Source: a virus
Reading direction: 5' to 3' (one strand)
Virus record (IMG/VR): IMGVR_UViG_3300049847_000437
Location: 1-43,218 of that record
DNA length: 43,218 nt
Part shown: positions 1,853 through 17,949 of the stretch, in pieces
Layout: each line of letters starts with the position of its first letter
Numbering within the stretch: position 1 is the stretch's first letter
Program-made: the position numbers and the translations under genes
The notes under the pieces: generated by a model
What the model was told of the DNA's origin: nothing
The model's input: only the letters and a program-made list of their open reading frames with translations
Databases searched by the model: none

Positions 1853-3298
1853 ATGTCCATCACCTTCAAACACTGGGTCGGCCCAAGGGACGAGCATCGG
1901 GTCTATGTCAATGGATTGACGGATGATGCCGCGCCTTTTTTTGTGCAAGGGCGCGGGTTTGTCATTCCGTCCTTCACACGGAATTCTGCCGCAGTACTAG
2001 AAGCCGCAAAGCGCTACGGCATTCGTGGTCTGACCTACGAACAAGCCTACAAACAAGCCCTCGTCCGCGCAGAGGGCGAACCTCTACCCCAAAATCCCCC
2101 CGTTCCACCCCAAGACAAAATGCCCACCTATCGCGCTGCGCTCGAACAGGTTCTGGTCGTTCATCTCTTCACCAGCGCACGGACGGTAGGACTGTCCTTC
2201 CGGAACGGGCTGACGAAGACTGAGCTGATCGACAGAATCTGCGACAGAGGAGAAGAAACCGCGCGTAAGGTTATAGAGATCGTGGCCCAGTTGAAAGCGG
2301 GGCATATTCCCCCGAAGCCACAATATGACTCGAAGGATTGGGAAGATTTTGTTGAGGCGCCGAAGGCGCAGTGCCCGACGCCAGTTGCCTCTATCGACCT
2401 TTCCGAATACGCAAAACGCACATGGGTCACTGAGGGTCTGCAACGCGAACAAGCGGGCCGGGCTGTTCTCGAACAAAATCTCCGGGCTGAACTCGAAGCC
2501 CTTCGCAACCTACGCCCTGTTGTCCTTCAATTCCCGGACAAGCCCGAGCCGGTCAAGATTGAAGGGACGATGCACCCCCAATTCCCGGACCTGATTCTCT
2601 CCCTTCGCGCTGGCCTGCATTGCATGTTGGTCGGCCCTGCGGGTTCGGGAAAAACCCATTCCGCAGAACAAGCCGCAAAAGCCCTTGACCGGGAATTCCA
2701 TCTCCAAGGCGCAATCTCCTACACTCACGAACTACTGGGCTACATCGACGCCCATTCTCGCTACGTTCGAACGCAGTTCCGTGATGCGTTCGAGAAAGGC
2801 GGGTTGATTCTTCTCGATGAATTCGACGCCAGCGCGGCAGAAGCGGCCCTAGTCCTTAATGCAGCCCTTGCGAATGGTTCCTGCGCCTTCCCTGATGGTC
2901 TAGTCCGCAAGCACGAACGCTTCATGTGCGTTGTGGGCGCGAACACTGACGGCTCAGGGGCCACAATGCAATACTCTGGCCGTGCACGTCTCGACGGTGC
3001 GTTTCTCGACCGCTTCGTGGTCTTTGATTGGCAGATTGACGCCAAGATCGAGGAAGCCCTCTCAAATGGGAATTCCCTTTGGCTCGCCGCAGTACGCGCT
3101 ATTCGGGACTACGCCCATAAGCAACAGATTCTGGACGTGATCGCAACCCCCCGCGCAACGGCTCGCGGCGCCCTTCTCTGCCAACAAGGCATGGCTCGGG
3201 GATTGATCCTTGAACGCACCTGCAAACGCGGCGCTCTCGTTTCCTCATGGGCCGATGTCCTGCGCCTTCCCGCGGTTGCCGCATTCCTGAAAGGTTGA
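1853..3298 (+). CDS. AAA+ ATPase, MoxR/CobS-like
   Basis: This 481-residue protein is the first gene of the early arm. The C-terminal half is a AAA+ module: Walker A GPAGSGKT (261-268), Walker B LILLDEFDA (about 318-326), a sensor-1 like GANT (about 363) and an arginine-finger-like ARLDGAFLDRF (about 378-388). This resembles the MoxR/CbbQ/CobS ATPases, which work as rings with a partner protein to remodel targets or insert metals. The N-terminal 240 residues are not recognised. ATG 1853 has no Shine-Dalgarno. The next gene starts 2 nt after the stop, so the two are probably a functional pair, like CobS/CobT. Confidence 0.8.
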   Translation: MSITFKHWVGPRDEHRVYVNGLTDDAAPFFVQGRGFVIPSFTRNSAAVLEAAKRYGIRGLTYEQAYKQALVRAEGEPLPQNPPVPPQDKMPTYRAALEQVLVVHLFTSARTVGLSFRNGLTKTELIDRICDRGEETARKVIEIVAQLKAGHIPPKPQYDSKDWEDFVEAPKAQCPTPVASIDLSEYAKRTWVTEGLQREQAGRAVLEQNLRAELEALRNLRPVVLQFPDKPEPVKIEGTMHPQFPDLILSLRAGLHCMLVGPAGSGKTHSAEQAAKALDREFHLQGAISYTHELLGYIDAHSRYVRTQFRDAFEKGGLILLDEFDASAAEAALVLNAALANGSCAFPDGLVRKHERFMCVVGANTDGSGATMQYSGRARLDGAFLDRFVVFDWQIDAKIEEALSNGNSLWLAAVRAIRDYAHKQQILDVIATPRATARGALLCQQGMARGLILERTCKRGALVSSWADVLRLPAVAAFLKG

Positions 3299-9859: not shown

Positions 9860-9974
9860 CATCTTCACCCTGAAAGAACTCGACCTAATCTGGTCCACAG
9901 TTTTCACCTACCATCGAAACTTCCCCTCAACCCTAGCCCTATCCATCATGCAAAAACTTGAGGAATTTAGATGA
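9822..9974 (+). CDS. Tiny helical protein overlapping the nuclease gene
   Basis: ATG 9822, with an AGAAG-type site before it, gives 50 residues (MLPANQTPPSLSNIFTLKEL...). The body is a helix pair, LKELDLIWSTVF and TLALSIMQKLEEF. The first 12 codons overlap the nuclease end. The stop overlaps the MazG-like start (ATGA), so it sits in the translation chain. Function is unknown. Confidence 0.6.
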   Translation: MLPANQTPPSLSNIFTLKELDLIWSTVFTYHRNFPSTLALSIMQKLEEFR

Positions 9975-10495
9975 CTGATTATCCTTCTTTCGTCCAATCC
10001 CGCATCAAGTGGCTCTCGACTGATGCAGAAAACCTGCACCACGCCTCCACAGGCCTTATGGGTGAGGCCATCGAACTGACCTACGCCAATTCCCGAGAAA
10101 ACGCCCTCGAAGAACTTGGCGACCTCTGCTTCTACAAAGAACACTTCCGGCAAGCATGGATACGAGCACGAAACTTTCCCCCATTGTACGGTCTAGCCCC
10201 TCCCCTCTATAATGGGCACACGCACGCAGGATTCTCCACAATCCTACTTCTCCGTGACTGCGGCAGCCTTCTCGACCTCACGAAAAAAGCTTGGATTTAC
10301 AACAAACCCCTAAAAGGCCTTCAAGAAGATCTTGAAGAGAAAATAGACCATATTGAAGAAAGCCTCAATGCCAACGCAGCTCTTCTTGGAGTCACAACCT
10401 CCCAACTCCAAGTTTGGAATCAACAAAAACTCCAAAAGCGCTACCCCCTTGGCTATTCTGACCTAGCTGCACAAGAAAGGGCGGATAAAAAATGA
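9971..10495 (+). CDS. MazG-like nucleotide pyrophosphohydrolase
   Basis: The 174 residues show the all-alpha NTP-PPase signature: HHASTGLMGEAIEL (E32, E35) followed by ENALEELGD (E47, E48, D51), which coordinate Mg2+, and a C-terminal TSQLQVWNQQKLQKRYPLGYS typical of this family. It should hydrolyse (d)NTPs, or ppGpp as proposed for phage MazG proteins, to the monophosphate. The middle (about 65-110) is an insertion compared with short MazG proteins. The gene is coupled on both sides by ATGA. Confidence 0.85.
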   Translation: MTDYPSFVQSRIKWLSTDAENLHHASTGLMGEAIELTYANSRENALEELGDLCFYKEHFRQAWIRARNFPPLYGLAPPLYNGHTHAGFSTILLLRDCGSLLDLTKKAWIYNKPLKGLQEDLEEKIDHIEESLNANAALLGVTTSQLQVWNQQKLQKRYPLGYSDLAAQERADKK

Positions 10496-11809: not shown

Positions 11810-11859
11810 AATGGCTTCTTCCCCCATCACCACCTACCCCGGCTTCAACGTCCTTCTAA
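11497..11859 (+). CDS. Zinc-ribbon protein
   Basis: The 120-residue product has a clear zinc ribbon: CPTCGQTWGR (from residue 29) and CDLCG about 20 residues later, then GGCPGSFL and LLHADKTLLLYE. I recall similar small phage proteins beside Sak-type ATPases, of unknown function. It overlaps the previous gene by 313 nt in another frame and the ATPase gene by 49 nt. Conserved cysteines make this the better supported frame in the shared stretch. Confidence 0.7.
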   Translation: MRTFFLRDEILTRCGTSAGSGKGGIAYFCPTCGQTWGRVDLAWVEWMAARVPCDLCGPIAGYGGCPGSFLKPLSWWDKPNGESLAAQLLHADKTLLLYETQRHIKWLLPPSPPTPASTSF

Positions 11860-12665
11860 TGGGCCCTTCCGGCACCGGAAAAACCTACTCCATCAAAACC
11901 CTGGTCTCGGCCGGGGTTGAAGTTTTCTGCCTTTTCCTCGAACCCGGGCTAGAGACTCTGATCGGCGCCTATTCCGACGAGGGAAAGCCTATCCCCGATA
12001 ACCTCCACTGGCATTACCTTCAACCCAAGAGTCAGGGCTTCGACCAACTTTTCCAATCCTCGGAAAACATCGGAAAGTTCGACCTCGCCGCCCTTCAAAA
12101 GATGAAGGATATAAAGCGCTCCCAGTCGAACCAAATGTCCGCCCTTCTAACCCAGTTGAATGACTTCACTGACCAAAAAACTGGCCAGAAATACGGCCCC
12201 GTAGACGGATGGGATAATTCCCGAGTCATTGTAATTGACTCCTTCTCCGCCCTGAACCGCATCGCTCTCGATACCGTGGTCGGAACAAAACCCATCAAAG
12301 ACATGGCCGAATGGGGCATTGCGCAATCCCTCGTCATGAACCTCCTGCACAAACTAACCTCCGGCTGCAACGCCCACTTCGTCCTCATCGCCCACGTCGA
12401 GCGCGAGATTGACCAAATCTCCGGGGGCCTAAAACTCATGGTGTCGGCCTTGGGCAAGGCCATCACTGCCCAGATTCCGAGCCTCTTCTCCGACGTAATC
12501 CTAACGGCCCGCGAAGGCTCCACCTTCCATTGGGACACGGCCAATTCTATGGCTGACGTTAAAACTCGAAACCTTCCGATTTCCTCTAAACTCCCTGCCG
12601 ACTTCGACCAAATCTTCCAAAAATGGGAAGATCGCCGAGCGCTGGCTACAAAAGGCATCAAGTAA
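11811..12665 (+). CDS. Sak4-like RecA-fold ATPase (AAA_24 type)
   Basis: The 284 residues start with GFNVLLMGPSGTGKTYS (Walker A GPSGTGKT, 18-25), continue with a Walker B-like SRVIVIDSFSAL near residue 140, and contain a sensor-like NAHFVLIAHVERE. This is the pattern of phage P-loop proteins grouped with Sak4, which promote single-strand annealing with a cognate SSB. Its neighbours, a PD-(D/E)XK exonuclease upstream and an SSB candidate downstream, support a role in phage recombination or replication. Confidence 0.8.
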   Translation: MASSPITTYPGFNVLLMGPSGTGKTYSIKTLVSAGVEVFCLFLEPGLETLIGAYSDEGKPIPDNLHWHYLQPKSQGFDQLFQSSENIGKFDLAALQKMKDIKRSQSNQMSALLTQLNDFTDQKTGQKYGPVDGWDNSRVIVIDSFSALNRIALDTVVGTKPIKDMAEWGIAQSLVMNLLHKLTSGCNAHFVLIAHVEREIDQISGGLKLMVSALGKAITAQIPSLFSDVILTAREGSTFHWDTANSMADVKTRNLPISSKLPADFDQIFQKWEDRRALATKGIK

Positions 12666-12781: not shown

Positions 12782-13264
12782 ATGTCCCGTCTTTTTGACC
12801 CCGTGGCTTTTATGAACGAAGCCGTTCCCGAGAATGCCACCCGACGCGATCCCCGTCCTGCGGGGGAAGCCCTGGGCCAAGTCATGAAAATCGAGCACAA
12901 AACTGGAACCATCAAAAAAGGTGATCGCACAGGCGAAGCCTGGAATCGGTTCGATGTGCAGATTGAAGTGACCGACCCCCAATACCTCGCAACCCGAGAA
13001 CACGGCACCGGATCGAAGGAAGTCTTTACCTATGGTCTGATGTACGACGCTGAGCCCTCTGGCCAGCCTAAAGTCGGCCCGAACGTGAATGTGAATCTGG
13101 GCCGCTTCCGTGAAGCCTGCGACGCCAACGGCAAGCCCTGGAACGCCTGCATTGGCAAATTCCTCCGAATTCAGATCGTCCAAAAGCCCCACCCCGAGGG
13201 CCTGACCAATTCGGATGGAAGTCCGGTTATTCTGGATGAGGTTAAAGCCGTCACGAAAGCCTAA
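12782..13264 (+). CDS. Probable ssDNA-binding protein
   Basis: The 160-residue protein has an OB-fold-like alternation of strands ([64 protein letters not shown]). I recognise it as the kind of phage protein placed next to Sak4-like ATPases and acting as SSB. It lacks an acidic C-terminal tail (ends VKAVTKA). Its own strong promoter, AAAGGA ribosome site and terminator indicate high, independent expression, as expected for a stoichiometric DNA-coating protein. Confidence 0.65.
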
Positions 13265-13296: not shown

Positions 13297-13464
13297 ATGA
13301 ACCCCACTCCACCCCCCATCCCTCCCTGTTCGAAATGCAGATTCCGTCACGTCTACGAAAACTCCGAAATCTGCAATCTAGAGCCAAAGTTCCCCGAGCC
13401 CATTTTCACCGCCGTCAGGTTTCGGGGGCCGGAGTTTATCTGTTTTCAGGAGAAAGAGAAATGA
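13297..13464 (+). CDS. Tiny cysteine-rich protein, possible zinc binder
   Basis: ATG 13297 lies 6 nt after the terminator and gives 55 residues. Cysteines at 11 and 14 (CSKC), 26 and 49 could form a small zinc site ([24 protein letters not shown]). The stop overlaps the DHFR ATG (ATGA). No family name; it resembles the short cysteine-knuckle proteins common in phages. Confidence 0.65.
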
Positions 13465-13676
13465 GACGTGGAGATTTAGTCCGAAAACGCAGCGGAGCCG
13501 CCTGGGAAGGCGTAATAGTTGGCGAATATAGCACAACTCTAACACCAGAAGGCTATGCTGTCGAATCCATTGCGCACCCTGGCTCAGTACAAATCTACCC
13601 AGTAGCTGCTCTTGAATTGTTAAAATCAACCCACACGCCAAAGGGGACTAACCCTTTCTTGGAGAAAAAGCCATAA
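13461..13676 (+). CDS. dfrB-like: Type II dihydrofolate reductase (R67/DfrB-like)
   Basis: The first 54 of 71 residues align closely with plasmid R67 [41 protein letters not shown]. Residues matching R67 K32, W38, H62, Q67, I68 and Y69 are present here as K9, W15, H39, Q44, I45 and Y46. R67 W45 is replaced by Glu22, and C47 by Ser. The disordered R67 N-terminus is absent and a 17-residue C-terminal extension is added. The family acts as an SH3-fold homotetramer reducing dihydrofolate with NADPH and is insensitive to trimethoprim. Upstream frame extensions are ignored because ATG 13461 overlaps the preceding stop. Its place before the polymerase suggests a role in nucleotide supply. Confidence 0.88.
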
Positions 13677-14101
13677 AACCCATCGGCCCAATCCCAGTCG
13701 AGCGCGCTAACGGCGTCTCTGTACGCGCACCAAGGATCGGGAAGAAGTGGCGCCGCATGGCCGAGCTATACAAGCGCTTTGCTTGCGACTACAAAGCCGC
13801 CGACTTCAGCGAGGCCGCAGCGCTTGCGATGTACCGGCATGAGTCAACCGGCTCAGCGCTCCCAGACCCGCGAACGAACGGCTATGCGCTCGGCAAGAAG
13901 TGGATGGACGTGACAGTCGCGGGATGGAAAGAGGAGATTCCTCAGATGGGCTTGCTTGTTTCTGAGCTTCAAGCGGATGGATACCCGGACTGGTTTCTTG
14001 AGCGCGTTGGCGTACTGCGCCTTGTTCCGACGAGGGCGGCGTGTGCATGGTGGCTTGAGACGCCCAACGACGGCGATGAGCAGCAGGAGCCCTCAAAATA
14101 A
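13673..14101 (+). CDS. Hypothetical protein inserted before the DNA polymerase; possible AUA start
   Basis: From ATA 13673 the frame encodes 142 residues; the first ATG is at 13757 (114 residues) but has no ribosome-binding site. ATA 13673 has GGAG 8 nt upstream and overlaps the DHFR stop as ATAA. Its first 23 bases match the polymerase start at 14098 with one difference. The rest ([40 protein letters not shown]) is not recognised. Codons are richer in GCG/CGC and poorer in CCC than the neighbours, suggesting recent acquisition together with duplication of the start site. Confidence 0.6.
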
Positions 14102-14120
14102 AACCCACCGGCCCAATCCC
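13673..14120 (+). repeat. Duplicated gene-start sequence, 23 bp with one mismatch
   Basis: Bases 13673-13695 and 14098-14120 differ at one position. Each begins ATAAAACCCA and follows a GGAG with 8 nt spacing. The copies lie 425 bp apart and bracket the inserted small gene. Removing one copy and the DNA between would join the DHFR stop to the polymerase start with the same ATAA overlap. Confidence 0.85.
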
Positions 14121-16545
14121 CGCCCGAATCGCCATCATCGGTGAAGCCCCAGGTCGAGAAGAAGAACTACAGGGCCTCCCCTTTGTAGGACCATCAGGTG
14201 CCCTTCTATCTTCCCTCCTCCAAAAAGCCGGGATTCTTCGAACCTCCTGCTTTATCACAAACGTCTGCAATCACCGCCCCCCAGACAATGACATGTCGGA
14301 ATGGCTTTCCGACCGAAAAACCCCTCCATCCCACGAATGGAAGCATATAAACGGGAAATGGGCTCACCCCCATGTTGTTGCCGGACTAGAGAAGCTCGAA
14401 AGAGAACTCGAAGAAGTCAAACCTGATATCATAATCGCCCTCGGAAATACCCCCCTCTGGGCCTTGACCGGGAACTCCGGTATTCAAAAGTGGCGCGGGT
14501 CCAGACTGCGGTGGAAGGACTCCATCCTAATCCCCTCCATCCATCCTGCTGCAGCTCTACGCGAACCCGCCCTCTCCCCCGTCCTCTTAATCGACTTCAA
14601 ACGCGCCCTAGCCCTTTTAGAAGGAAGACAGAAACCTCGTGAATACCAATTCTCCATCAATCCTTCGTTCTCAGAGGCATTGCAGTGGCTCACCGAGCTT
14701 CTTGATAAGGCAGAAAAAGCTACGGAAACCCTCATCTTGTCTGGCGACCTCGAAACCAGATTGGGACATATCGCCTGTATCGGCATCGCCGTATCCGAAA
14801 CCAGAGCTTTTTGCATCCCTTTCCTGGAACTCAACCGGAACAATCCTTTCTATTGGCCCGAAGCTCAAGAGTCTGTTCTCGTCCACTTGATAATCCGGCT
14901 CCTGACCCACCCCAACATAAACTGGATCGGCCAAAACTTCCTATACGATTGTCAATACTTTCACCGCTTCTGGGGCGTCTATCCTCGCCGGGTCTGGGAC
15001 ACGATGATCGGCCACCATTCCATCTACTCCAACATGCGGAAGGGCCTGGACTTCCTCTCCTCCATGTACGCCCACGATCATGTCTACTGGAAAGATGAAA
15101 TCAAAGAATGGGACCCTGCTGTCGGGGAGAAGCAGTTCTGGACCTACAATTGCAAGGATGCCTGCATCACCTTCGAAATCTGGGAACGGATTGTAGAAGA
15201 ACAACTCGCTCAAAACTCCTCCGAGCATTTCTACTTCCAACAGAGTCTATTCGGCCCCGTTCTCCGCATGATGAATCGAGGAATCCGCCTAGACACCCAA
15301 TCCCGCGGGACATGGAACCCCGTCCTAGAAACCGGAACCGGCCTAAAGGGCGAACTTATCACAGCTCAGATTCGCCTCCAGCAGAATCTTGACTTCATGG
15401 CCGGCCACCCACTAAACCCTCGCAGCCCGGCACAACTTCTAAAATTCTTTTATAACGACCTCGGAGTAAAGGCGATCCATTCTCTCGCCACCGATGCTGC
15501 CACCACAAATAGCCCCGCCCTACAAACTATTGCAAACCGAAATCCAGTCCTCCAACCCCTATGCCAAACCATCGCAGAGTTAAGGTCCGTCGGCGTTTTT
15601 CTAAATACTTTTATCGACGCCTCTCTAGACTCCGATGGGCGTATGCGGTGCTCTTTTTCGATTGCCGGGCCAACGACCTTTCGCTTTTCTTCTTCCGAAA
15701 ATGCGTTCGGATCGGGTATGAACTTACAAAATATTCCCACAGCAGAGAAAATCAAGGTAAAGGGAAAAGACAACCTCCACTTGCCCAACATCCGAAAACT
15801 TTTCATCCCCGATCCAGGCTATACCTTCTTCGATATGGACCTAGACCGGGCTGACCTCCAGGTCGTAGTCTGGGAGGCCGATGATTCCGACCTAAAACTC
15901 GCCCTCCGAAAGAACCTCGACCTACATTCCCTCAACGCCTGCGATATCTTCGACATAAAGGGAATCCCCTATGATGAACTTTCAGAAGATCACCCTAACT
16001 ATCACGACCATCGAAGACGTATCGGGGAATCTAATAGAGCAAAAGCAAAAATGGGAGTTCACGCCACAAACTATGGCGTGGGTGACTACAAACTCGCCCA
16101 AAGCCTGGGGATTAGTGTCCGGGAAGCTGCACTTTTCCGTTCCCGATGGTTTGGCGCTCATCCTGGAGTTAAGCAATGGCACCAGCGTACTGAAACTCAA
16201 GCCCAGACCCGAGGCTTCATCCAAAACCGTTTCGGAGCAAAGTTCAACATTCTCGGAAGATTCGATCTCCCGGAGTGCCTCGCATGGCTCCCCCAATCTA
16301 CCGTCGCCGGGGTCATTAACCGCGCTCTTATCCGAGTCGATTCGCTTGAACAAGCTCAAGAAACTTCCATCCAGCTCTTGATCCAGGTTCACGATTCCCT
16401 CGCAGGGCAGTTTCTGACCTCGCGTCGAGAACAGGAAATCACGACCCTGGAAAAATGCGGCCTAGTCTCCATTCCCTACGACGATCCCCTTATCATCCCT
16501 GTAGGGATAAACTGTTCCGAAAAATCTTGGGGGGATTGCAAATGA
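14098..16545 (+). CDS. Family A DNA polymerase with N-terminal UDG-like domain; apparent AUA start
   Basis: The first ATG (14293) would cut off conserved sequence. From ATA 14098 (GGAG 8 nt upstream, in-frame stop at 14077) the product has 815 residues. Residues 1-170 are a uracil-DNA-glycosylase-superfamily domain: IGEAPGREEE at 14-23, GLPFVGPSG, ITNVCNHRPP, and PSIHPAAAL near 146. A DnaQ-type 3'-5' exonuclease follows (DLE at 217-219, WIGQNFLYD, YNCKDA), then the Pol I palm and fingers: motif A DLDRADLQ from 581, motif B RAKAKMGVHATNYG near 647, motif C QVHDSL near 764. The E. coli Pol I residues E710 and E883 correspond to Asp and Ser. This is the replicative polymerase of the phage. Confidence 0.9.
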   Translation: MKPTGPIPARIAIIGEAPGREEELQGLPFVGPSGALLSSLLQKAGILRTSCFITNVCNHRPPDNDMSEWLSDRKTPPSHEWKHINGKWAHPHVVAGLEKLERELEEVKPDIIIALGNTPLWALTGNSGIQKWRGSRLRWKDSILIPSIHPAAALREPALSPVLLIDFKRALALLEGRQKPREYQFSINPSFSEALQWLTELLDKAEKATETLILSGDLETRLGHIACIGIAVSETRAFCIPFLELNRNNPFYWPEAQESVLVHLIIRLLTHPNINWIGQNFLYDCQYFHRFWGVYPRRVWDTMIGHHSIYSNMRKGLDFLSSMYAHDHVYWKDEIKEWDPAVGEKQFWTYNCKDACITFEIWERIVEEQLAQNSSEHFYFQQSLFGPVLRMMNRGIRLDTQSRGTWNPVLETGTGLKGELITAQIRLQQNLDFMAGHPLNPRSPAQLLKFFYNDLGVKAIHSLATDAATTNSPALQTIANRNPVLQPLCQTIAELRSVGVFLNTFIDASLDSDGRMRCSFSIAGPTTFRFSSSENAFGSGMNLQNIPTAEKIKVKGKDNLHLPNIRKLFIPDPGYTFFDMDLDRADLQVVVWEADDSDLKLALRKNLDLHSLNACDIFDIKGIPYDELSEDHPNYHDHRRRIGESNRAKAKMGVHATNYGVGDYKLAQSLGISVREAALFRSRWFGAHPGVKQWHQRTETQAQTRGFIQNRFGAKFNILGRFDLPECLAWLPQSTVAGVINRALIRVDSLEQAQETSIQLLIQVHDSLAGQFLTSRREQEITTLEKCGLVSIPYDDPLIIPVGINCSEKSWGDCK

Positions 16546-16748
16546 AGACCTACTGCATTCGCCGAACTATCAATGTAATTCGAGGTAGAGATATCGAAAA
16601 GCTAATGCGAGCAATACGTGAAGACATGGCGCAAGAGCTTAGTTACCATCTAACCCGCACAGACGACTTCTTCGTGGTAAAAGAGTCGCTTTTTTCCGGA
16701 GAAGTCATTCTCTACCTAACAGTCCATGTAGCTACTGATGCCAACTGA
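16542..16748 (+). CDS. Small hypothetical protein
   Basis: A 68-residue protein (KTYCIRRTINVIRGRDIEKLMRAIREDMAQEL, then strands FFVVKES and EVILYLTVHV) with a beta-alpha-beta look. It starts by ATGA overlap with the polymerase and overlaps the next gene by 11 nt. It is AT-rich relative to both neighbours. Function is unknown. Confidence 0.65.
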   Translation: MKTYCIRRTINVIRGRDIEKLMRAIREDMAQELSYHLTRTDDFFVVKESLFSGEVILYLTVHVATDAN

Positions 16749-17949
16749 TTCCAAAACCCCGCGTGAACTCCCAGACTGGCTCTCAGAATTCGTCGAGAAT
16801 ACAAAATGGGGGGAGGCTCCAGACTATTTTTACTTCTGGGTAGGAGTAGGAACAATCGCAGCCGCCCTCCGCCGCAGGGTCTGGCTCCCTATGGGCACCT
16901 TCCAATGGTTCCCGAACCTTTATATTCTTCTAGTCGCTCCTCCAGGCGTTATCCAAAAGTCCTCTACGGCCGACTTGGGCCTAGTCCAACTTCTGAAAAA
17001 TGTCCCTGGGATAAATTTCGGCCCCTCGACAGTCACATGGCAGGCCCTCTATGACGCCTTTGCCGGGGTCGGGGAAACCGTCGATATCGACAAAGATCTC
17101 CAGATAACTCAATCCGCCCTTGTCATAAACTCTTCCGAATTCGGCATCACCCTGAATCCAAAAGATACTGAAATGGTGGACCAACTCGTTCATATCTGGG
17201 ATGGGCGGGAAATGCGGAAAAGGACTCGGAAAGATGGGGAGCTAATAATCCCAACCCCTTGCCTTAATATGATAGCCTGCACCACCCCCGCGTGGATTGC
17301 AGAGAATATGCCCCGATATTTGATCGGAGGAGGTCTGACCTCCCGCATGCTTTTCGTCTATGGCGAGGAAAAGGCCCGTTATATCGCCTATCCCTGGATG
17401 CACCTTCCCGAGGGCTTTCCCGAACGTCAGGGAAAGCTCACCCGCGATCTTGAACGCATATCCCTCTTAAAGGGCCCGTTCAAAATGACCCCCGAAGCCC
17501 TAGAATGGGGGAAGAACTGGTACGAGAACTTCCACAAGGTCGAGAAGAAACAACTCGATCCCACCCTTATCGGGGGCTACATCGCCCGGAAGCAAACCCT
17601 CGTCCACAAGGTCGCAATGGTCATATCTGCATCCCAAAGCGATAGTCTGGAAATGACCCTATCCGACCTCCAACGGGCTGAAGCCATTATAACTTCCCTC
17701 GAAGTCCACATGCCCAAGGTCTATAGCCGGATTGGCATGACCAAGGAATCTAATGCAGGCGAGCAGATTATGGCCTACATGGTCCGCTCTGGGGGCGTCT
17801 GCGAGTGGCAGACCCTATACCAATACATGCACCGCACCTTTCCCAAGGTGGAGGAAGTAGAGGATATCCTGCGGGGGCTTATTGAGGCAGGTTATGTCAA
17901 TATTGACCGGGCAACCCGTTCGGTCCATCTTCTAAAGAGGCCAGAATGA
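16738..17949 (+). CDS. DUF3987-like P-loop protein, candidate replicative helicase
   Basis: The 403-residue protein follows the pattern of DUF3987/YfjI-type proteins: YFYFWVGVGTIAAALRRRVWLP, then FPNLYILLVAPPGVIQKSST at the place of the P-loop (67-76), and a VINSSEFG strand like a Walker B region near 130. The P-loop is degenerate (QKS in place of GKS). A C-terminal winged-helix-like tail (MAYMVRSGGVCEWQTLYQYM, VEDILRGLIEAGYVNID) follows. It is adjacent to the polymerase, and no other helicase is visible, so a role in unwinding or loading is likely but unproven. Confidence 0.65.
   Translation: MPTDSKTPRELPDWLSEFVENTKWGEAPDYFYFWVGVGTIAAALRRRVWLPMGTFQWFPNLYILLVAPPGVIQKSSTADLGLVQLLKNVPGINFGPSTVTWQALYDAFAGVGETVDIDKDLQITQSALVINSSEFGITLNPKDTEMVDQLVHIWDGREMRKRTRKDGELIIPTPCLNMIACTTPAWIAENMPRYLIGGGLTSRMLFVYGEEKARYIAYPWMHLPEGFPERQGKLTRDLERISLLKGPFKMTPEALEWGKNWYENFHKVEKKQLDPTLIGGYIARKQTLVHKVAMVISASQSDSLEMTLSDLQRAEAIITSLEVHMPKVYSRIGMTKESNAGEQIMAYMVRSGGVCEWQTLYQYMHRTFPKVEEVEDILRGLIEAGYVNIDRATRSVHLLKRPE

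Follow-up and report, generated by a model that had tools for sequence, protein, structure and literature searches.

An environmental phage genome from IMG/VR carries a gene for a bare, tail-less DfrB-type (R67-like) dihydrofolate reductase (DHFR) domain, located as an accessory gene within the replication module. DfrB is the textbook trimethoprim-resistance enzyme, with few characterised relatives. The window analysed here, i.e. the whole stretch of 43,218 nt, is the entire virus record IMGVR_UViG_3300049847_000437. Family membership, intact key residues, predicted fold and accessory status are established for the gene, and we consider it likely that it serves as an accessory, antifolate-insensitive DHFR, a tail-less DfrB protomer that would add tetrahydrofolate (THF) regeneration during infection. 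Copies of the family are common in viruses, where they come and go in replication modules; they show purifying selection and no link to thymidylate synthesis.

The DfrB gene and its product

13461..13676, + strand: dfrB-like gene, 71 aa; R67-type SH3-like DHFR domain without N-terminal tail; Shine-Dalgarno (SD) sequence AGGAG upstream

The gene runs from an ATG at 13461 to a TAA stop at 13674–13676 (+ strand). An alternative in-frame start at 13215 is less likely, because the SD sequence (AGGAG) and the overlap with the upstream stop favour 13461. The 71-aa product matched the Pfam family PF06442 (DHFR_2) with E=2.3e-26 and 91.9 bits (curated cut-off 25) and R67 PDB chains with E=3e-22 (phmmer, residues 3–54), values that rule out a chance similarity to DfrB; identity to R67 was ∼74% over 52–55 residues. 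An earlier note on this DNA, made from the sequence alone, had called a DfrB/R67-like ORF at this position, and the call is confirmed for an intact ORF. Against NCBIfam NF000331, which represents the DfrB resistance alleles, the protein scored 102 bits, below the cut-off of 137, placing it as a homologue outside the catalogued 78-aa resistance alleles.

Using R67 numbering (R67 position = window position + 23), the protein starts at R67 residue 24 and lacks the ∼23-residue N-terminal tail. Active-site residues K32 (K9), S65 (S42) and VQIY 66–69 (43–46) are present, as are the interface residues W38 (W15), S59 (S36) and H62 (H39). Thus all of the equivalents previously listed as conserved (K32, W38, H62, Q67, I68 and Y69) were found, and S59, S65 and V66 too. 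W45, a monomer-monomer interface residue kept in classical DfrBs, is Glu here (E22). The substitution pointed out in the earlier note is therefore real but unremarkable, because W45 varies among viral relatives and is unconserved and substitutable among DfrB homologues (PMC9835603); as the site is variable in relatives and dispensable according to the same study, W45E was dropped as an argument for loss of function. R67 position 24 is the initiator Met in the window protein and F in 126/140 relatives.

An AlphaFold2 monomer model, built from an input alignment of 62 window/locus sequences, had a pLDDT of 87 (>90 in the barrel). Compared with R67 crystals (2gqv/6nxz/1vie) using Foldseek, the model gave an rmsd of 0.6–0.8 Å over 54–55 residues (E ∼5e-8), and the next-best PDB match (E=0.04) was more than five orders of magnitude weaker in E-value than R67. 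The expected compatibility with the R67 fold was thus borne out for the monomer. The protein would be expected to form a homotetramer, and its pore and interface residues are present. Weak structural matches to the window model within BFVD were to DUF2158 and T4 gp30.5-like phage SH3 proteins, which are possible distant kin of DfrB.

Genome and gene neighbourhood

The first 128 bases of the window recur at its end, and because of this terminal repeat it is probably a complete phage genome of ∼43.1 kb. Other genes include those for terminase, portal, capsid, endolysin, Sak4, primase, a MazG-like protein and an exonuclease. Among named phages, a Manatee Spring metagenome phage is closest (62% for the capsid and 44% for the polymerase). 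The features surrounding dfrB are as follows:

9971..10495, + strand: MazG-like pyrophosphatase (phrog_229, E=4.9e-16)
11811..12665, + strand: Sak4-like ATPase (phrog_124, E=1.2e-20)
12782..13264, + strand: 160-aa replication-module protein, "SSB-like" by position only; no Pfam match, conserved in relatives
13297..13464, + strand: Cys-rich mini-protein (from the ORF list); stop overlaps the dfrB start (ATGA)
13673..14101, + strand: 142-aa ORF (ORF2) between dfrB and polymerase; ATA start after an SD sequence, no Pfam match
13673..13695, + strand: 23-nt direct repeat, copy 1, at the ORF2 start; overlaps the dfrB stop as ATAA
14098..14120, + strand: 23-nt direct repeat, copy 2, at the polymerase gene start
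14098..16545, + strand: UDG – 3'-5' exonuclease – family A DNA polymerase fusion (PF03167, E=2.7e-27; PF01612; PF00476, E=3e-39)
16738..17949, + strand: DNA primase (phrog_14296, E=8e-72)

The earlier placement of the gene in a phage replication region, outside an integron, was upheld: the neighbours of dfrB are phage replication genes, not integrase or resistance cassettes. Its placement between the Cys-rich mini-protein and the polymerase was correct on the Cys side only, as the 142-aa ORF2 intervenes on the other. GC3 was 0.41 for dfrB versus 0.57–0.68 for its neighbours (0.68 for ORF2). Elsewhere in the window, an AAA+ ATPase (1853–3298) matched phrog_249, a porphyrin-biosynthesis (CobS-like) family, with E=1.7e-48, and is followed by a 294-aa ORF.

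The first 23 nt of ORF2 and of the polymerase gene are near-identical (ATAAAACCCAYCGGCCCAATCCC). The body of ORF2 had 71–80% identity to ORFs in other phage contigs, whose own start differs; in those contigs a polymerase-like start was absent and genes of the window module were not found nearby, and ORF2 is taken as a later insertion. On the simplest reading of these sequences, ORF2 would have been inserted with duplication of the polymerase start, and dfrB would formerly have abutted the polymerase gene, its TAA overlapping the ATA start. The polymerase fusion probably starts at this ATA (14098), which takes in the N-terminal UDG domain, upstream of the first ATG at 14293. Both apparent ATA starts (ORF2, 13673; polymerase, 14098) have an SD sequence ∼8 nt upstream, and the polymerase of the closest relative (L131) starts with ATG; AUA initiation of an essential gene, the polymerase, is possible.

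An optional insert in a conserved replication module

We compared 16 relatives of the window polymerase, several of them on contigs that are fragments. In L131, the closest of them (72% identity), the genes are arranged as Sak4 – SSB-like – Cys mini-protein – polymerase (ATG) – primase, without dfrB, and its Cys mini-protein homologue (50% identity) lies directly 5' of the polymerase. The 160-aa SSB-like protein is conserved upstream of the polymerase in L131, L133, L134, L136, L138, L140, L141 and L144. A DHFR_2 match anywhere on the contig was found in 0/16 polymerase relatives, by the same profile search that did recover the window record. Based on sequence reading and annotation, in other relatives the slot equivalent to that of dfrB is occupied by a MazG-like, ParB-like or methylase-like ORF. 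The dfrB gene is therefore an accessory gene in a variable slot of a conserved replication module. A conserved dfrB-polymerase operon was rejected, and adjacency to the polymerase is no evidence for one, because the relatives lack dfrB.

Among other phages, the DfrB gene overlaps the polymerase gene in the podovirus MW202697. In L013 it lies between the primase gene and a MazG-like gene, and in a Rhizobium schitovirus it comes after genes for primase, helicase, SSB and RusA. DfrB next to a polymerase gene was thus found in MW202697 but in none of the 16 polymerase relatives of the window phage.

DfrB relatives in viruses

A profile-guided scan identified relatives in at least 221 viral contigs, and the 80 best of these were retained. 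Further relatives were found at 45 loci in 84,980 genome species, in 98 plasmid records and in 26 phage records, several of which carry the annotation R67 DHFR. Among the best 80 of 221 contigs, no viral copy was more than ∼78% identical to the window protein, while in core identity viral copies reached 83%; a DNA-level search of phage records with the window gene gave no homologous match.

Phage DfrB homologues have been published before. Lemay-St-Denis et al. (2023) described homologues from a Pseudomonas phage (DfrB-H3) and a Vibrio phage (DfrB-H4), and four of the five homologues that they tested, DfrB-H4 and three others, conferred trimethoprim resistance (PMC9835603). Further reports of dfrB-like genes concern freshwater viral contigs (PMC7265639), a phage MAG from wastewater (PMC10580818) and eight lytic phages (PMC12466917). 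Because of these reports the window gene is not a new kind; it belongs to a family already known from phages, and the novelty that the earlier note saw in its phage location falls away, with relatives also present in the 26 phage records.

Invariant columns among 62 aligned relatives include the pore and interface positions K32, W38, S59 and V66–Y69. Conservation of the VQIYP and TPEGYAVE stretches is partly a selection artefact because the scan patterns favour one or the other, but S59, G40, G44, Y46 and G54 were not selected for. Kept across hits were K32, W38, S59, Y46, G40, G44 and VQIY, and departures were rare among 145 hits: PS-1 has an altered end, a Skermania phage has VQVY, two others carry insertions and one copy is partial. 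Position 45 was T (47), W (9), F (6), E (6), H (2), S (1) or I (1) among distinct viral sequences, and W (24), F (6), T (4), Y (3), H (1) or K (1) among genome copies; position 62 was H or E in relatives. Low pN/pS ratios, namely 0.065 for a stand-alone viral cluster, 0.155 for a fused viral cluster and 0.069 for Burkholderiales copies, indicate that DfrB genes are under purifying selection.

Two further arrangements were observed. A viral cluster with stand-alone dfrB (L044, L047, L048, L060, L067, L070, L071, L073, L078 and L081) has cytidylyltransferase-, NAD-sugar-epimerase- and glycosyltransferase-like and radical-SAM/QueE-like ORFs as dfrB neighbours, according to sequence reading. A Polynucleobacter MAG contig (L120) carries two different DfrB genes on opposite strands, ∼7.7 kb apart.

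Proposed function

By analogy with the family, four 71-aa protomers would assemble into an R67-type tetramer with one central pore, which would hold NADPH and dihydrofolate via K32 and V66-Q67-I68-Y69; hydride transfer would be promoted by proximity and would be insensitive to trimethoprim. The dfrB gene would have entered the variable slot upstream of the UDG-exo-PolA gene by recombination, in a conserved phage replication module, and would supply additional THF regeneration while phage DNA is synthesised in the infected cell by means of the host thymidylate synthase. We judge DHFR activity of the product very probable, and the chances that folate is its purpose to be about even. The accessory DHFR reading is favoured by the family match, the kept key residues, the R67-like predicted fold and purifying selection on phage relatives, as well as by the trimethoprim resistance that Vibrio phage DfrB-H4 and bacterial homologues conferred despite an unconserved W45 (PMC9835603). 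Against it, F24 is swapped for the initiator Met in the window protein, and the metabolic gain is not obvious, since the turnover of R67-type enzymes is low (kcat of only 0.2–0.4 per s; PMC9774602). Many phage relatives are, moreover, domains of larger mosaic proteins, some with a Lar domain, which a plain DHFR role leaves unexplained.

The coupling to phage nucleotide metabolism proposed earlier was not supported when 45 DfrB-bearing viral contigs (each ≥20 kb) were compared with 45 random viral contigs. ThyX was not enriched (3/45 versus 3/45); ThyA in 2/45 and FolA in 0/46 (window included) were counted on the DfrB-bearing set only. ThyA, ThyX and FolA were also looked for in the window genome, and none was found. 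The lack of co-occurrence with thymidylate synthases, and of such a gene in the window phage, counts against an accessory DHFR; with ThyX not enriched, ThyA rare and FolA absent, genomic evidence for a folate role is limited to the enzyme itself. PolA was found in 6 and integrases in 14 of the 45 DfrB-bearing contigs.

The absent thymidylate-synthase coupling would fit a different account, which we consider doubtful: that the DfrB-type SH3 domain is natively non-folate in phages, binding protein or nucleic acid and perhaps acting in counter-defence, with DHFR activity a by-product of the tetramer pore. Long extra segments at one or both ends were found in 37/84 viral copies, an upper estimate because each frame was taken to begin at the first Met following a stop; a form common in temperate phages ends '...APIAQTAPQG-KFRMGDLVRK...'. 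Single frames combine DHFR_2 with a Lar restriction-alleviation domain in L057 (7113–8183) and L111 (7644–8204), and in L122 (7395–8168) with Lar below the cut-off; Lar is fused to, or within ∼0.6 kb of, the DfrB domain in L057, L033, L059 and L069. Published DfrB homologues also lie near DNA methyltransferases (PMC9835603). Lar scored over the cut-off on 7/45 DfrB-bearing versus 0/45 random contigs (Fisher p=0.012), but this enrichment is only suggestive because the Lar-bearing contigs are related temperate phages, not independent, and the random control was unmatched. Furthermore, K32 and VQIY are invariant even in fused copies, which binding alone would not require and which argues for retained catalysis or ligand binding, and resistance to trimethoprim was seen with the fused homologues DfrB-H4, H5 and H6 (PMC9835603). 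The accessory DHFR remains our preferred reading, and the Lar fusions provide a testable hint on native DfrB function.

Origin of the phage and integron genes

An N-terminal tail (..PVAGQFALP..ATFGLG) was present in 5/6 plasmid, 14/44 genome and 0/84 viral copies, and is absent from the window protein. Plasmid DfrB1, B2, B3, B6 and B10 have it in common with the 14 genome copies, mostly Burkholderiales. Because of this shared tail and its absence from viral copies, the classical integron DfrBs appear to derive not directly from phages like the window phage but from a lineage of soil and water Burkholderiales, and the tail provides an easy marker by which the Burkholderiales/integron lineage can be told from phage copies. 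Burkholderiales were also inferred to be the original dfrB hosts in a published analysis (PMC11662351), with which our data agree; the earlier suggestion that phages were the source of plasmid dfrB is therefore not supported.

That phages were nonetheless the original source of the whole family, plasmid genes included, we regard as unlikely. Relatives are numerous in viruses (at least 221 contigs versus 45 loci in 84,980 genome species, although collections and patterns differ), and viral cores are diverse (mean identity 0.74 for 65 distinct cores), whereas the Burkholderiales/integron cluster is tight (0.92). However, genome copies overall are as diverse as viral ones (0.70), some being possibly prophage-borne, and both the match of the integron tail to Burkholderiales chromosomes and the published host inference (PMC11662351) point the other way. 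The tree can be neither rooted nor resolved: no claim was placed on it because it rests on 57 columns, has 4/116 inner branches well supported and puts the window on a long branch. A tail-less plasmid copy would also suit a phage source: in the resistance region of P. aeruginosa plasmid p1160-VIM (L159, 2995–3165), DfrB WP_257792703, which neighbours aadA1 and IS110-family elements, has no integron tail and finds its closest matches among phage copies (81% core identity); it may represent a separate recruitment.

A scenario joining both ideas is quite improbable in our estimation: the DfrB fold would be of phage origin and would have diversified there as an exchangeable early-gene domain, partly Lar-fused, with a non-folate native role and a pore that incidentally reduces dihydrofolate, Burkholderiales and then integrons would have recruited the fold, and the bare domain of the window would be one free-standing form. 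Passive capture of a Burkholderiales-like chromosomal dfrB, with no selected use in the phage, is quite improbable as well: the top core identities are to Burkholderiales (85%; Ramlibacter, Undibacterium), dfrB occurs sporadically and its GC3 is low (0.41), but viral copies are nearly as close (83%), the ORF is intact with an SD sequence and start/stop overlaps, the Burkholderiales tail is absent, and synonymous sites are near saturation against the closest relatives (pS 0.65–0.86), which also rules out a recent transfer from Burkholderiales.

Comparison with known systems

Compared with previous reports, the present analysis adds a complete-genome context, the empty site in a relative, the scale of viral occurrence, a negative test for a thymidylate link, the association with Lar and the tail as a marker. 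The window protein has in common with plasmid and integron DfrB1/R67 the SH3-like fold and K32, W38, S59, H62, S65 and VQIY; it differs in its missing N-terminal tail, F24 to Met, W45 to Glu, a C-terminal extension (17 letters) and its phage location. Burkholderiales chromosomal dfrB (PMC11662351), which has the highest core identity to the window protein (85%), differs in its integron-type N-terminal tail, W45 and chromosomal location.

DfrB-H4 (Vibrio phage 1.030.O) and DfrB-H3 (Pseudomonas phage PS-1) are phage-encoded and carry VQIY, K32 and W38 like the window protein, but form part of larger proteins (annotated at 219 and 168 codons), and the PS-1 domain diverges from the family after QIYPAK; the window protein is a bare domain. 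The R67 DHFR gene of podovirus ctOsX528 (MW202697) is, like that of the window, a small stand-alone dfrB, and it overlaps a DNA polymerase gene; it belongs to another phage lineage and encodes E at 62 and T at 45. Beside these systems, the window supplies a minimal stand-alone phage copy of DfrB in a complete genome.
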